Shown piece after piece: positions 15,287-43,279 of a DNA stretch of 64,000 nt. The notes beneath the pieces were generated by a model. The model was given only the letters and a program-made list of their open reading frames with translations. It was not told the origin of the DNA and searched no databases. The DNA is from an uncultured Pelagibacteraceae bacterium (GTDB lineage: Bacteria > Pseudomonadota > Alphaproteobacteria > Pelagibacterales > Pelagibacteraceae). The DNA lies in NCBI GenBank assembly GCA_902582605.1, contig CACHSP010000001.1, positions 1-64,000 of the forward strand. The letters run 5' to 3'. Position 1 is the stretch's first letter; each line of letters starts with the position of its first letter. Made by a program: the position numbers and the translations under genes.

Positions 15287-16660
15287 ATGAATTATATTAG
15301 TACAAGAGATAATCAGAAAAACTTTACTTTTAAAGATGTTTTCCTCAAAGGTTTGGCAGATGATGGGGGACTATTTGTTCCAAAATCAATTAAACCATTT
15401 AAAAAGGAAGAATTAGATAACTTAAAAAACCTAAGTTACAATCATTTAGCGGCTGAAATAATTTATCCATTCATAGGAGATTTCATGTCTAAAGATGATC
15501 TAATTTCTTTGATTTCAAAATCATATTCAAATTTCAGATCCGATGATGTTGTAAAAATATCTGATCTAGGTGATTTAAAAGTATTAGAATTATTTCATGG
15601 ACCTACACTTGCTTTTAAAGATATCGCAATGCAACTAATAGGTAATTTTTATCAATATCATTTAGGTCGTGATCAAAAAAAAATTAATATAATTGTTGCA
15701 ACTTCAGGTGATACGGGTGCCGCTGCCATAGACGCTTTAAAGGGAAAAAATAATTTAAATGTTTTTGTATTACACCCCAACAATAAAATTTCGCCAGTGC
15801 AAAGAAGACTAATGACAATACATGAAGAGAGTAATGTATTTAACATTGCGGTGGAGGGTAATTTTGACGATTGCCAAAATTTAGTAAAAGCAATGTTTAA
15901 TGACGAAAAATTTTCTAAAGCAATTAATATGTCGGGTGTAAATTCAATCAATTGGGCAAGAATTATTGCTCAATCGGTGTATTATTTTTACGCTTACTTT
16001 AAAATTGGAAACGGCCAACCACTATCTTTTTCTGTTCCAACAGGAAACTTTGGTGATATTTACGCTGGCTATTTAGCAAAAAAACTAGGTCTTCCAATTG
16101 ATAAATTAATCGTAGCTACAAATAAAAATGACATACTGCACAGAGCGATATCTGGTGGTGATTATAGTCAAAAGAAAGTTGAAGAAACAAATACTCCAAG
16201 TATGGATATACAAATAGCAAGTAATTTCGAAAGACTTTTATACGACGTCAAAGGTTGTAACTCAGAAGTGACAAAAGTTGTAATGGGTGAAATAAAAAAT
16301 AACACTTATAAAATTGATAAAAAAGACTTAGATAAAATTAAAAAGGATTTTACATCTGAAATGCTTAATGAAAACGAAACTGTTGAAATGATAAAAACCA
16401 TCAATGACGAATATCAGATGGTAGTGGATCCGCATACTGCAGTGGGTATTGGTGTGGTTAGAAAATTAGGATTGGAAAAAAATTGTGTTGTATTATCAAC
16501 TGCACACCCATGTAAGTTTCCGAAGGCAATAGAAGATGCAATATCAAAAACTGAAAATTTACCAGAAAGTCTTAAATATGTTAATGACAGAAAAGAAAAA
16601 TTTGAACTTCTATCAAATGATATTGAAAAAGTTAAAAAATATGTGATGAATTCGATATGA
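15287..16660 (+). CDS. thrC: Threonine synthase
   Basis: A PLP enzyme that converts O-phosphohomoserine to threonine. The PLP lysine lies in GPTLAFKDIAMQL, and the phosphate-binding loop is ATSGDTGAAA. The 457-residue length and the N-terminal YISTRDN start fit the class of long threonine synthases. It begins right after the surf1 stop, continuing the same run, and overlaps the peroxiredoxin gene by four bases. The homoserine kinase gene lies about 1.6 kb away on the other strand. Confidence 0.95.
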   Translation: MNYISTRDNQKNFTFKDVFLKGLADDGGLFVPKSIKPFKKEELDNLKNLSYNHLAAEIIYPFIGDFMSKDDLISLISKSYSNFRSDDVVKISDLGDLKVLELFHGPTLAFKDIAMQLIGNFYQYHLGRDQKKINIIVATSGDTGAAAIDALKGKNNLNVFVLHPNNKISPVQRRLMTIHEESNVFNIAVEGNFDDCQNLVKAMFNDEKFSKAINMSGVNSINWARIIAQSVYYFYAYFKIGNGQPLSFSVPTGNFGDIYAGYLAKKLGLPIDKLIVATNKNDILHRAISGGDYSQKKVEETNTPSMDIQIASNFERLLYDVKGCNSEVTKVVMGEIKNNTYKIDKKDLDKIKKDFTSEMLNENETVEMIKTINDEYQMVVDPHTAVGIGVVRKLGLEKNCVVLSTAHPCKFPKAIEDAISKTENLPESLKYVNDRKEKFELLSNDIEKVKKYVMNSI

Positions 16661-17145
16661 AACTTAAAATAAAAGATCAACTGCCAGACACAGAGATTTT
16701 TCAACTTGTTGATGGAGAGCCTCAAAAAAGTAAATTAAGAGAAACTATTGGTAATGGTAAAGTTGTTTTATTTGGTTTACCAGGGGCATTTACATCAACT
16801 TGCTCCAAACTTCACTTACCAGGTTTTGTAGCAAATGCAGATAAAATCAAATCAAAAGGAATAGAAAATATATTTTGTTTATCAGTAAATGATCCTTACG
16901 TAATGAATGGCTGGGGTGAGATTAATAATACTGGAGATAAAATTAAAATGTTATCTGATCCATATTTATTATTTACGAAAGCAATCGGTGCTGAAGTTGA
17001 TCGAAATGCAAAAGGAATGGGAATTAGATCAAATCGTTATTTAATGGTGATTGAAAATTTCACAATTGTTAATATTCATGTTGAAAAAGAAACTAAAGAA
17101 TGTGGTTTAACTTCAGCAGAAAACTTATTAAATAATCTAATCTAA
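16657..17145 (+). CDS. Peroxiredoxin, Prx5-like (redoxin domain)
   Basis: A thiol peroxidase of 162 residues. The peroxidatic cysteine is in LPGAFTSTCS, the Prx5/AhpE-like form of the P-x-x-x-T-x-x-C motif; the conserved arginine follows near GIRSNRY. A second cysteine near the C-terminus (ETKECGL) could be a resolving residue. It reduces hydroperoxides using a thioredoxin- or glutaredoxin-type donor. Its ATG overlaps the thrC stop. It is the last gene of the run: the stem-loop repeat begins three bases after its stop. Confidence 0.92.
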   Translation: MKLKIKDQLPDTEIFQLVDGEPQKSKLRETIGNGKVVLFGLPGAFTSTCSKLHLPGFVANADKIKSKGIENIFCLSVNDPYVMNGWGEINNTGDKIKMLSDPYLLFTKAIGAEVDRNAKGMGIRSNRYLMVIENFTIVNIHVEKETKECGLTSAENLLNNLI

Positions 17146-17148
17146 GTA

Positions 17149-17179
17149 GGGCAGTTCTGTTGCCAGGTGCCCCGAACTA
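17149..17179 (+). repeat. Stem-loop repeat, copy 1 (after the peroxiredoxin gene)
   Basis: Contains the 19-base core GTTCTGTTGCCAGGTGCCC (17154-17172), found again without change at 17824-17842. Flanking bases give a 5-bp stem GGGCA/TGCCC around a 14-base loop. It is GC-rich against a very AT-rich background and starts three bases after a stop codon. No T-tract follows, so it is not an ordinary intrinsic terminator. I do not recognise it as a known RNA family. Confidence 0.75.
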
Positions 17180-17232
17180 TGTTTGATTATAGCAAATATT
17201 TTTTCCAAAATAACACTAATTTTATGTATTAG

Positions 17233-17267
17233 GACGAGTAAATGACGAGTAAAAATCGACTCGTCAT
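17233..17267 (+). repeat. Paired GACGAGT repeats and a 9-bp inverted repeat upstream of the unknown gene
   Basis: GACGAGT occurs at 17233-17239 and 17244-17250, exactly 11 bases apart. The second copy is the left arm of a perfect 9-bp inverted repeat, ATGACGAGT (17242-17250) and ACTCGTCAT (17259-17267), with an 8-base loop. It lies 29 bases before the start codon of the 149-residue gene. One-turn spacing fits an operator, but the hairpin could also act in RNA. Confidence 0.7.
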
Positions 17268-17295
17268 AGATTTTAGGATTTGATAATCTTAAAGA

Positions 17296-17745
17296 ATGTT
17301 TTTTGGTTTATTTGAGGGAAAAGCTGCAAAAGCGTGGCGTGAGGAAACAATTAGAACAATTAATGATGCCTCTTACAGGTTTGATATTAAAAAAAAAAAA
17401 TCAATTTCAAAAAATGTTTTGCAAAGAATTTTAAGATTATTAGAGGAAATAGAAAATCTTTCAGCTAGAGACAAAAAAGAGATAATGTTTCAACGTATAG
17501 ATGAAATTGCCAAAGAGCGAAGGCAAAATATAAATAATTTACAATTTGATAATCCAAAGTGGGTTGAGGTTGCAATGACAGAAAGTTTTTTTAATATGTA
17601 CAGTGGCCATTTTGGTAAAAAACTCGCTCAAGAAGCTGTAATGGTTATATATTGGTGTAGAACAAATCTATCTGAAAAAGAAATAGATAAATTAGTTAAG
17701 AATTCAAGTTTACCAAAAGATAAAATATTTGGTGATAAGTTATGA
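17296..17745 (+). CDS. Unrecognised 149-residue protein bracketed by short repeats
   Basis: I do not recognise a family. The protein starts MFFGLFEGKAAKAWREE, is rich in charged residues and looks mainly helical, with a basic stretch (KKKKSISK, about residues 36-43) and a C-terminal half containing NMYSGHFGKKLAQEAVMVIYWCRTNLSEKEIDKLV. No signal peptide or clear membrane span is visible. ATG at 17296 has no strong ribosome binding site. The TGA stop is itself part of a TGACGAGT repeat. Both ends carry the same two repeat families, so it may be a self-regulated gene or a small mobile cassette. Codon use is as AT-rich as its neighbours. Confidence 0.75.
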   Translation: MFFGLFEGKAAKAWREETIRTINDASYRFDIKKKKSISKNVLQRILRLLEEIENLSARDKKEIMFQRIDEIAKERRQNINNLQFDNPKWVEVAMTESFFNMYSGHFGKKLAQEAVMVIYWCRTNLSEKEIDKLVKNSSLPKDKIFGDKL

Positions 17746-17761
17746 CGAGTATAGGACGAGT
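17743..17761 (+). repeat. Paired GACGAGT repeats at the 3' end of the unknown gene
   Basis: GACGAGT occurs at 17744-17750 and 17755-17761, again 11 bases apart as in the upstream pair. The two-base contexts swap: upstream the order is AGGACGAGT then ATGACGAGT, downstream it is ATGACGAGT then AGGACGAGT. The first copy includes the gene's TGA stop codon (17743-17745). Confidence 0.7.
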
Positions 17762-17818
17762 CATTAGGTTGTATTTTTAAATTTACGTTGATAACTAAAA
17801 CTTATTTTAAAATAGGAA

Positions 17819-17848
17819 GGGGCGTTCTGTTGCCAGGTGCCCTAACTA
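17819..17848 (+). repeat. Stem-loop repeat, copy 2 (next to the rnhA stop)
   Basis: Repeats the 19-base core of the copy at 17154-17172. The outer stem is GGGC/GCCC; where copy 1 has an inner A-T pair, this copy has G and T, which can wobble-pair in RNA, so pairing is kept despite the change. Shared flanking bases AACTA follow both. Its last three bases are the rnhA stop codon on the minus strand. Confidence 0.75.
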
Positions 17849-18268
17849 CAAGTTAGCAGCATCTTTAGCGAGTAAATCTACTTCATTATTTAATTCATCG
17901 GTTGAATGGGCTTTTACCCAGTTCCAACTTATTTCAAATTCATTATTTAATAGATCTAATTCTGTCCAAAGTGCTTTATTGCTTACTTCTTTTTTGTTTG
18001 CAGTTTTCCATCCATTTTTTTTCCAATTGTGTATCCATTCTGTTATTCCAGATTTAACATATTTGGAGTCAGTAAAAATTTGAACTTTGCTTCCTTTTGG
18101 AATTTTTTTAAGCGCCTCTATCGGTGCTAATAATTCCATTTGATTATTTGTCGTATCTTTTTTATTTCCTTTGAGTTCAGTTTTTTTCCCATCATTTAAT
18201 ATTATTGCGGCCCAGCCACCATTGCCAGGATTACCAAGACACGAACCATCGGTATAAATTTTAATCAT
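17846..18268 (-). CDS. rnhA: Ribonuclease HI
   Basis: A 140-residue RNase HI that degrades the RNA strand of RNA-DNA hybrids. The catalytic carboxylates are visible: Asp in YTDGSCLGNPG, Glu in NNQMELLAPIEAL, Asp in IFTDSKYV, and the last Asp in NNEVDLLAKDAA, with the conserved histidine in VKAHS. It overlaps thrB by one base and is the last gene of the minus-strand run; the stem-loop repeat copy 2 covers its stop codon. Confidence 0.95.
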   Translation of the reverse strand: MIKIYTDGSCLGNPGNGGWAAIILNDGKKTELKGNKKDTTNNQMELLAPIEALKKIPKGSKVQIFTDSKYVKSGITEWIHNWKKNGWKTANKKEVSNKALWTELDLLNNEFEISWNWVKAHSTDELNNEVDLLAKDAANL

Positions 18269-32464: not shown

Positions 32465-33531
32465 TTTTTTGAAATTAATCTTTGTCTTAAATTATCTATA
32501 GGCACTATTTGCCCATTAAGATTATAATGCCAATAAGTCCAGCCATTACAACTTTCTGCTCCCAATATTGATGCAGCTACCTTGTGAATTGAGCCCTCTT
32601 TTTTGGCATGTTTTATACTTCCATCAGCCATAATTTTTGCACTGATTTTCTTTTTATTATCAAAAATAGTAGTGCCTGGTTTAATTATTCCTAATTCAAC
32701 CAATGACCCAAAAGGTATTCTTGGTTTAGATCTACCATTTTGCAAAGTATCTAAATAATCATCTTCTATAGGTTTTGTATTTTTAAGTCGTTGTTCAGCT
32801 GCCTTATAATAGGTTTTTTCTTTTTCAATTCCGTAATAATTTCTACCCAATTTTTTTGCAACTGTTGCTGTTGTTCCTGATCCTAAAAAAGGATCTAAAA
32901 CTAAATCATTTTTGTTTGAGGTTGCTAATAAAATTCTGTGAAGTAGAGCCTCAGGTTTTTGAGTAGAATGAACTTTTTTACCATTTTTTTTAAGTCTTTC
33001 AGAACCATTACAAATCGGCAACTCCCAGTTCGATCTCATTTGAAGATCATCATTTAAACATTTCAAAGATTGATAATTAAAAGTGTATTTTGATTTTTCT
33101 GATTTTGACGCCCAAATCAAGGTTTCATGCGCATTAGTAAAACGTGTCCCTCTGAAATTTGGCATAGGATTTTTTTTATTCCAGATGACGTCATTTAAAA
33201 TCCAAAAACCTAAATTTTGAATAGCGGTGCCAACTCTAAAAATGTTATGGTAACTGCCGATCACCCAAATAGCGCCATTCTTTTTCAAAATTCTTTTACA
33301 TTCTGTTAACCACGAGTAGGTAAATTCATCATACTTTTTAAAATTTTCAAATTGATCCCATTCATCATTGACTGCATTTACCTTAGACCTATCGGGTCTT
33401 ATGAGCTCATTCTTTAACTGTAAGTTGTAAGGAGGGTCAGCAAAAATTAAATCAAAAGTTTCACTAGGGATTTTTTTTAGTTCCCTTAAACTATCTCCAT
33501 TAATTAATTTATTTTTAAAGTCTAAATTCAT
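32461..33531 (-). CDS. ccrM: Cell-cycle DNA adenine methyltransferase CcrM (GANTC)
   Basis: A solitary beta-class N6-adenine methyltransferase of about 356 residues. The catalytic motif is DPPYNLQL and the SAM-binding motif is DPFLGSGTTATVAKKLGR, in the beta-class order. The C-terminal ~85 residues (from PRIPFGSLVELGIIKPG to the end) match the extra domain that CcrM proteins use to open DNA, which separates it from restriction-type enzymes. The ATG at 33531 fits the family start MNLDFKNKLINGD; an upstream ATG would add 14 unconserved residues. No restriction enzyme is nearby. Confidence 0.93.
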   Translation of the reverse strand: MNLDFKNKLINGDSLRELKKIPSETFDLIFADPPYNLQLKNELIRPDRSKVNAVNDEWDQFENFKKYDEFTYSWLTECKRILKKNGAIWVIGSYHNIFRVGTAIQNLGFWILNDVIWNKKNPMPNFRGTRFTNAHETLIWASKSEKSKYTFNYQSLKCLNDDLQMRSNWELPICNGSERLKKNGKKVHSTQKPEALLHRILLATSNKNDLVLDPFLGSGTTATVAKKLGRNYYGIEKEKTYYKAAEQRLKNTKPIEDDYLDTLQNGRSKPRIPFGSLVELGIIKPGTTIFDNKKKISAKIMADGSIKHAKKEGSIHKVAASILGAESCNGWTYWHYNLNGQIVPIDNLRQRLISKN

Positions 33532-33548
33532 TTTATAAAAATAAATTA

Positions 33549-33564
33549 GACTCCAAAAAGATTC
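33549..33564. promoter_or_regulatory. Two GANTC sites directly upstream of ccrM
   Basis: GACTC at 33549-33553 and GATTC at 33560-33564 lie 18 and 29 bases before the ccrM start. GANTC is the methylation target of CcrM. In Caulobacter, two GANTC sites near the ccrM leader tie its transcription to methylation state. The same role here is inferred from this arrangement. Confidence 0.5.
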
Positions 33565-33650
33565 TTGGGTCAACCTAGGATTGAATTATTTGGATTTCAT
33601 TTGTATGATAGTGGTTCACAACAACTACATCTGGTGTTTCTACGTGAAAC

Positions 33651-42499: not shown

Positions 42500-43279
42500 G
42501 TGAAAAATTTTTTTAAAATATTTTCATTTATTATATTATTTTCTGGACTTTCACTCAGCACTCATGCTGCAGAAAAAGTTGAATATTTAAAAACTGATTG
42601 GAGCTTTAAAGGACTCTTTGGAAAGTTTGATCGAGCCGCACTTCAAAGAGGTTATCAAGTCTACACAGAGGTGTGCTCTTCTTGTCATTCGATGAAATAT
42701 TTAAGTTATAGAAACTTAGCTGAAAAAGGGGGACCAGAATTTTCTATAGAGCAAGCAAAAGCTATTGCTGCATCTTTTGAGGTCAAAGATGGACCTAATT
42801 CAGACGGTGATATGTTTACTCGTCCAGGCAGATTATCAGATAAGTTTGTAATGCCCTATGATAACGTTCAAGCTGCTCAAGCCGCAAATGGAGGTGCTTA
42901 TCCACCAGATATGTCTGTATTAGTTAAAGCAAGAGGGGGTGGGGTAGATTATATTTACTCATTGCTTCAGGGATATGAAGACCCACCAGCTGGAGTTACT
43001 TTAGATGATGGTGTGTATTATAATAAATATATGTATGGGAATAAAATTAAAATGGCTAATCAGTTATCAGATGGATTAGTAGAATACTCAGATGGTACAA
43101 CAGCATCTGTTGAGCAAATGTCAAAAGACGTAACAACATTCTTGATGTGGTCTGCTGAACCTCACTTAGAGTCAAGACATCAAATGGGTTTTAAAGCTAT
43201 CGTGTATTTAATTATTTTAACAATCCTAGTTTATTTTAGTATGAAAAGAATATGGTCACGTATTGAAACGGAAGTTTAG
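42500..43279 (+). CDS. petC: Cytochrome c1 (GTG start)
   Basis: The c1 subunit of bc1. It has a signal peptide ending STHAA, the heme site CSSCHSMKYLSYRNL, the axial methionine region in the MFTRPGRLSDKFVMPY/ANGGAYPPDMS segment, and a C-terminal membrane anchor (VYLIILTILVYFSM). The GTG start begins immediately after the petB stop, a sign of tight coupling. Its 3' end overlaps ychF on the other strand by 24 bases. Confidence 0.95.
   Translation: MKNFFKIFSFIILFSGLSLSTHAAEKVEYLKTDWSFKGLFGKFDRAALQRGYQVYTEVCSSCHSMKYLSYRNLAEKGGPEFSIEQAKAIAASFEVKDGPNSDGDMFTRPGRLSDKFVMPYDNVQAAQAANGGAYPPDMSVLVKARGGGVDYIYSLLQGYEDPPAGVTLDDGVYYNKYMYGNKIKMANQLSDGLVEYSDGTTASVEQMSKDVTTFLMWSAEPHLESRHQMGFKAIVYLIILTILVYFSMKRIWSRIETEV

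Follow-up and report, generated by a model that had tools for sequence, protein, structure and literature searches.

The window, the whole stretch of 64,000 nucleotides that was analysed, carries an insert between a peroxiredoxin-like gene and rnhA. A gene for a 149-residue protein and all five local copies of the heptamer GACGAGT lie inside this insert. Its features and neighbours are as follows.

16657–17145, plus strand: peroxiredoxin-like gene (Redoxin, PF08534, 1.1e-26), left chromosomal neighbour of the insert and the same neighbour as at the empty site of genome G021
17154–17172, plus strand: left core repeat GTTCTGTTGCCAGGTGCCC (predicted attL core), exact repeat of 17824–17842, equal to the 3' part of a permuted tmRNA on the other strand
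17154–17290, plus strand: conserved left end of the element, about 110–137 bp, 84–89% identical to the left ends of all six other GACGAGT elements compared
17233–17239, plus strand: left candidate arm-type site 1, GACGAGT, starting 79 bp after the core start
17244–17250, plus strand: left candidate arm-type site 2, GACGAGT, 11 bp beyond site 1
17259–17265, minus strand: third candidate arm-type site, inverted, making a 9-bp inverted repeat with left site 2
17296–17745, plus strand: cargo gene, an open reading frame (ORF) for a predicted all-helical protein of 149 aa (AlphaFold mean pLDDT 84.6)
17742–17842, plus strand: conserved right end, about 101 bp in length, 85–94% identical to the right ends of all six other GACGAGT elements compared
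17744–17750, plus strand: right candidate arm-type site 1, GACGAGT, the pair starting 80 bp before the core start
17755–17761, plus strand: right candidate arm-type site 2, GACGAGT, second copy of the right pair
17824–17842, plus strand: right core repeat (predicted attR core), exact repeat of the left core, with RF01849 matched only at E 0.17
17846–18268, minus strand: rnhA (RNase H, PF00075, 5.8e-46), right chromosomal neighbour of the insert and the same neighbour as at the empty site of G021

GACGAGT occurs six times in the window against 0.86 copies expected, a count that none of 100 shuffles reaches; the sixth copy lies at 42818. A sequence-only reading of this DNA had described forward copies at 17233, 17244, 17744 and 17755 as two pairs spaced 11 bases, the upstream pair including a perfect 9-bp inverted repeat with an 8-base loop. 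Both descriptions are correct, with a further copy on the minus strand at 17259; the inverted repeat (17242–17250 and 17259–17267) folds with a z-score of -3.4. The same reading had placed the stop codon of the gene within the copy at 17744. The two do overlap by two bases, but the codon (TGA, 17743–17745) is not contained in the copy. The paired pattern GACGAGTN4GACGAGT has only these two places in the organism's own assembly (966,519 bases, 78% complete), where the reversed control pattern has none. Between its ends the element holds one ORF of at least 60 aa, the cargo gene, and no PF00589 gene. Elsewhere in the window, a bablM sRNA was found at 33528–33597 on the minus strand (76.9 bits).

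A tmRNA-derived core and an empty site

On the outer sides of the pairs the 19-bp sequence GTTCTGTTGCCAGGTGCCC occurs in two exact copies, at 17154–17172 and 17824–17842. Read on the minus strand, they match the Rfam family of alphaproteobacterial tmRNA (RF01849) with E-values of 2.3e-6 (left) and 0.17 (right), both under the gathering score, and a third copy in the same genome lies on contig C21 within a permuted tmRNA called by ARAGORN. These matches and the C21 copy identify the 3' portion of the permuted tmRNA gene as the source of the core. This gene, ssrA, is described as a common kind of integration site for islands (PMC3146451). Exact copies of the core are present in 315 of 399 genomes of the genus, the tmRNA gene itself counted in, and among the matches listed at least 25 genomes have same-strand pairs of cores about 0.3–7.5 kb apart; the cargo between them includes, in one case, a DNA methylase. 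At locus L228 (genome G379), a core-bounded element of 7.5 kb has ORFs of 542, 413 and 1033 aa which, by eye, resemble a type I restriction-modification set.

The uninterrupted site is found in a close relative. In G021, whose peroxiredoxin and RNase H are 98.8% and 97.9% identical to those of the window, the spacer between the two genes is 37 nt long and holds one core copy with two substitutions, against 707 nt in the window. The comparison covered 29 loci from the 30 other genomes with an rnhA match (G062 was left out), and at five of the 29 (L182, L184, L189, L191 and L193) peroxiredoxin was not found in the stretch compared. A single core-like copy is also seen in the spacers of G033, G029, G018 and G063, more distant members of the genus (e.g., G009, G026, G012 and G030) have spacers of 7–16 nt without the core, and longer spacers of 411–1130 nt occur in G013, G005 and G027. 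The spacer thus exists empty or with a single core-like copy, with one cassette, or with an array of seven core-like copies. The array belongs to AG-447-N18 (L283, 4158–6981), in which the copies (0–4 mismatches) lie 382–627 bp apart with small ORFs between them, one of the cassettes being bounded by GACGAGT pairs at both ends. The insert of G031 (L159, 6154–8139) instead carries a C5 cytosine methylase (PF00145, 5.4e-53), a family-less ORF of 222 aa, CTTCATTGAA repeats at 11 bp, and a far core with three mismatches.

Shared ends, arm repeats and integrases

The spacing of pair and core is nearly constant among related elements. Six of the 399 genomes of the genus (the organism's own included) have the pair pattern, at ten places, and the reversed control pattern is absent. 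At nine of these places a core (up to four mismatches allowed) is 79 or 80 bp away, measured between the starts, and the tenth lies 81 bp from a half core, GTTCTGTT. The left pair begins 79 bp after the core start in the window, G214, G318, G246, G376, G407 and L280, and 80 bp after it in L283; in related elements, the integrase-bearing L276 included, the right pair begins 80–81 bp before the core start. When all genome contigs were searched for a pair followed by CTGTTGCC, half of the core, with a gap of 55–70 bases allowed, nine stretches were returned, every one of them titled Pelagibacteraceae and with a gap of 65 or 66; two of the nine seem to repeat elements of the genus set, L282 being apparently the G214 element (same ORFs) and L281 apparently the G376 element (same layout and ORFs). 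At about position 1582 of L242 (G407), on the reverse strand, a right end has only a half core, GGGGCGTTCTGTT, followed by other sequence, which is what insertion at a secondary site might give.

The ends are shared well beyond the repeats themselves. Compared with six other GACGAGT elements (those of G214, taken from L282, and G376, taken from L281, together with G318, L278, L280 and L283), the window element matches over 110–137 bp at the left at 84–89% identity and over 100–126 bp at the right at 85–94%. None of the six interiors matches that of the window, apart from cross-matches of core and arms and a 40-bp internal copy in G214, and the cargo of GACGAGT elements ranges from one ORF of 69 aa (G376) to three of 474, 318 and 157 aa (G214). 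Shared ends with exchanged cargo suggest that the mini-elements may form a lineage of their own. The cargo protein of L280 (1363–1785) begins MIFGLFK, compared with MFFGLFE in the window, but only nine residues align.

One related element carries an integrase. L276, from AG-435-B08, is a 5.4-kb element with two exact cores and GACGAGT arms that adjoins a tmRNA gene. It encodes a tyrosine-type integrase of 338 aa (PF00589 8.3e-21; PHROG integrase 7e-48), an AAA/primase-like protein of 673 aa (AAA_25 4.6e-22; PHROG unknown 1e-13, DNA polymerase/primase 8e-8) and a terminase small subunit (Terminase_2 5.4e-7; PHROG 7e-14). Its right pair keeps the 80-bp distance to the core that the mini-elements show. 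Its left arm is 115 bp away instead of 79 and has a degenerate second copy, and the sequence between right arm and core has diverged from that of the mini-elements. Relatives of the L276 integrase occur in 23 of the 399 genomes, and 18 of the 23 loci were examined (L285–L302). The closest, at 59% (G184) and 51% (G265) identity, are both beside tmRNA cores; none of the rest is, and six have a tRNA-Met nearby. (The alignment of three integrase sequences served for identity only.) An 11-bp-spaced repeat of at least 8 nt, not wholly or nearly A/T, was present at 6 of the 18 loci.

Repeats at this spacing are a wider property of core-bounded elements, and their sequence varies. We assembled 28 distinct two-core elements, the window included, defined by exact copies of 18 bases of the core on one strand 250–8000 bp apart; they come from selected regions, 20 of these regions having been picked among the core places listed, with single-core loci outside the count, and since some adjoin or resemble one another, not all are independent. 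A repeat of at least 7 nt at spacing 11, 40–100 bp from the core, was found at 27 of their 56 inner ends. The other spacings from 7 to 16 give 0–3 of 56 each, and among outer ends 4 of 56 have a repeat at spacing 11. By this exact criterion seven elements have the repeat at both ends, 13 at one end and eight at neither. The repeats include ATCCCGTACA, ATGACGCCA, ATTCCGAA, TAGTCGTC and others. Two further arm types are common to an integrase-bearing locus and a mini-element, with the mini-element having the 11-bp repeat at one end only in each case. The TGACGCCA type joins G265 to the integrase-less element of G034: the sequence TGACGCCACCATGACGCCA, between core and integrase in G265, is the same 19 bases as in G034. 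The TGTTGCAG type is found at tRNA-Thr, where G271, which has an integrase, matches G112. The G112 mini-element measures 1.27 kb and is bounded on both sides by exact tRNA-Thr ends, with TGTTGCAGGAT repeats at one side; the TGTTGCAG repeats of G271 have on one side an integrase truncated where the contig stops and on the other a sequence identical to the 3' portion of the G112 tRNA-Thr, at which ARAGORN called no whole tRNA. In G184 there is a degenerate repeat only, its likeness to the CCGACCAAA arms being judged by eye.

Genes for PF00589 proteins elsewhere in the genomes bear on where an integrase could come from. They were found in 26 of 34 chosen genomes, exactly one in 25 of them, and none of the 27 matches lies, by contig and position, inside the elements examined in those 34 genomes. 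The organism's own assembly (78% complete) likewise has one such gene, outside any element. Because the PF00589 genes found by this search lie outside the elements examined, the integrase of the window element is probably supplied in trans. The organism's own PF00589 recombinase has 325 aa (L206, G000:C3) and lies, by eye, beside a glycosyltransferase-like ORF; most of the 34 genomes have one open-frame match of similar size, and it could be a housekeeping recombinase.

The bare paired pattern occurs in at least 120 stretches of viral contigs. Searched for together, pair and core were found in no viral contig; nor does any viral contig searched combine the core with a single GACGAGT, and none carrying a GACGAGT-type attP was found. 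The best core-like sequences 40–130 bp from these 120 viral pairs (L007–L126) have 6 mismatches in 19 (L092, at exactly -79, and L124) and were judged to be chance. The core itself is found in 11 viral contigs (L207–L217), apparently within phage-encoded tmRNA genes as judged by eye from position and flanks, and none of the listed ORFs up to 2.5 kb away was recognised by eye as an integrase. For the L276 integrase there is one distant relative in viral contigs (28%) and 490 matches in phage records, all below 60% identity and 18 of them in records named Pelagibacter. Neither the 673-aa protein of L276 nor the 149-aa protein of the window has a match in viral contigs.

A candidate mechanism and its rivals

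We consider it probable that the GACGAGT pairs are the arm-type sites of an integrase, and that 17154–17842 is a non-autonomous mini-island with a single gene; what tempers our confidence is that a clear repeat is present at only 6 of the 18 integrase loci. Five observations lead to this reading: the core is duplicated, the site is empty in a close relative, the arms keep a fixed geometry, the ends are conserved while the cargo is exchanged, and an integrase gene accompanies the same arms. The layout would be a left end in which the core precedes the arm-type sites, then a single cargo gene, and a right end in which the order of sites and core is reversed. A lambda-type tyrosine integrase would bind the GACGAGT pairs through its N-terminal domain and recombine the tmRNA-derived core with its catalytic domain. 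Excision would join the two ends in a circle, giving an attP with a single core and one GACGAGT pair on each side. A phage-satellite-like element that shares these arms, for instance that of AG-435-B08, would provide the integrase in trans. Mobilisation in trans by an L276-type integrase appears to us the likeliest mechanism; such an integrase may bind GACGAGT, and the window element may still be mobile. Among the features by which a tyrosine-integrase island is recognised, the repeated boundary core, the uninterrupted target in a relative and the inner arms at fixed distance are all seen here, while a cognate integrase gene is present in the related L276 and absent from the window element itself.

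Two rivals are live. The first, compatible with the mini-island reading, is that the element arrived by homologous recombination of the peroxiredoxin–rnhA region between SAR11 cells, the arms having been used solely in an earlier host. We regard this as possible, though on the unlikely side. In its favour, other genomes also have cassettes in the same spacer, among them the array with seven core-like copies in AG-447-N18 and the methylase insert of G031, yet it leaves the first insertion unexplained, together with the same ends at other loci, e.g., beside tmRNA. The second, which we judge somewhat less likely still, is that the element is a decayed island, the CIME-like remnant of a former satellite with its integrase deleted, now a fixed scar that moves only with an adjacent element. 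There are accounts of islands that lack an integrase but keep their att sites, both among the Dehalococcoides ssrA islands and in ICE/IME tandems (PMC3146451, PMC5704250), and the window element and L276 do have arms and right-end geometry in common. However, the ends of the mini-elements are 84–94% identical despite unmatched cargo while the arm-to-core sequence of L276 has diverged, as if the mini-elements had their own lineage, and the window has a solitary copy, at a site left unoccupied in a near-identical relative.

The two remaining alternatives concern the pairs themselves and both came from the sequence-only reading. An RNA hairpin or cruciform formed by the inverted copy would have in its favour the perfect 9-bp stem of the window (z -3.4) and the recurrence of the third site at the same position in all ten left ends listed (exact in six, one mismatch in four). 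This is very improbable as the functional element, for where the window pairs at nine of nine stem positions, the other nine left ends pair at six to eight, with no compensatory change seen, and a comparable stem is lacking at the right pair (z 0.08).

That reading had also taken the one-turn spacing to mark sites for a dimeric protein, and had proposed that the enclosed gene's product binds them, loops the DNA and controls its own gene. The kind of site is supported, in that the pairs look like sites for a DNA-binding protein bridging both ends; the proposed identity of the binder is not. Four of 398 other genomes of the genus have a homologue of the 149-aa protein at E<=1e-3: G112 (70% identity), G069 (39%), G350 (37%) and G157, a weak match with frame stops. 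The recurrence of GACGAGT near orthologues, which had been suggested as a check, was not seen, since the 3.4-kb loci of all three intact homologues (G112, G350 and G069) have neither GACGAGT nor a tmRNA core at up to five mismatches, and the G112 homologue lies inside the 1.27-kb element bounded by tRNA-Thr, with other repeats at the tRNA-Thr end. No recognised DNA-binding family was found for the protein by sequence-profile or fold searches. Its family hits were judged to be chance (Pfam DUF4170, E 0.0011, below the cut-off; PHROG transcriptional regulator, 0.0025; NCBIfam, 0.067), PADLOC and a PDB sequence search returned nothing, and fold searches with the model gave nothing at E<=0.001, the best Z of 7.0 being to a designed helical protein and uninformative. 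Although pairs at one-turn spacing do flank the gene, self-regulation is thus hardly credible, given that the same pairs bound elements with quite different, unrelated genes, that the G112 homologue sits beside TGTTGCAGGAT repeats between tRNA-Thr ends, and that the protein has no DNA-binding family and no clear fold match. The best candidate for the binder is instead the integrase encoded by a related element.

Relation to known mobile elements

SAR11 bacteria are among the sea's most abundant cells, and the usual description gives them few mobile elements. The probable mini-island points to a little-described way of gene acquisition in streamlined genomes of the SAR11 type. In the SAR11 and Pelagibacter literature, as covered by titles and abstract openings with few subscription papers or preprints among them, such elements are not described, and an earlier description is possible. 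The arm repeat could tag which integrase an integrase-less element answers to, such that the pool of cargo and its carriers could be matched by sequence.

By its anatomy the element corresponds to a cis-mobilizable element, with predicted attL and attR retained and without genes for integration or transfer. Its nearest counterparts in this respect are the CIMEs and integrase-less ssrA islands of Dehalococcoides, which have direct repeats of the ssrA end, lack integrase and transfer genes and accrete in tandem (PMC3146451, PMC5704250). In the descriptions drawn on here, those Dehalococcoides islands that have a module rely on a serine recombinase and are located downstream of ssrA (PMC3146451, PMC5704250), whereas the window element has one small gene, arm repeats spaced by 11 bp, conserved ends and a site away from ssrA.

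The locus also shows the variable cassettes at one place, bounded by repeats of an RNA-gene end, that define an additive flexible genomic island. Islands of this kind in Methylopumilus (PMC10872708) and Actinomarinales (PMC7771536) are likewise small cassettes bounded by RNA-gene ends in streamlined aquatic bacteria, those of Methylopumilus measuring from 330 bp to 42 kb (PMC10872708). They differ in having tRNA ends, and the portions of the two reports drawn on here name neither arm-type sites nor an integrase partner (PMC10872708, PMC7771536). L276, for its part, resembles the phage-inducible chromosomal islands (PICIs; PMC6092414) in having genes for an integrase, a primase-like protein and a terminase small subunit within att repeats. 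An AlpA-kind regulator was not identified in L276. A PICI carries an integrase, a replication module and often terS, and the window element has none of these.

Two further systems help to place the mini-island reading.

In an attP of the lambda type, the core is flanked on both sides by direct-repeat protein sites about one turn apart. The window element is predicted to work like a lambda-type att system: the plan of core and arms is the same, while here the arm sites are predicted and their sequence changes between elements. Integron gene cassettes are one-gene units with a recombination site that form arrays at one locus. We tentatively propose, as something nearly as probable as its opposite, that SAR11 bacteria host an integron-like family of cassettes with one or a few genes and two standard ends, each end combining satellite-specific arm sites with a tmRNA or tRNA core; these cassettes would be moved in trans by the matching satellite, would be stored as arrays, both at tmRNA and at secondary locations like the peroxiredoxin–rnhA spacer, and would be a main route of gene gain. 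The one-gene units and the array of AG-447-N18 are like those of integrons, whereas here the core is a tmRNA end and each unit has two full ends with candidate arm sites.
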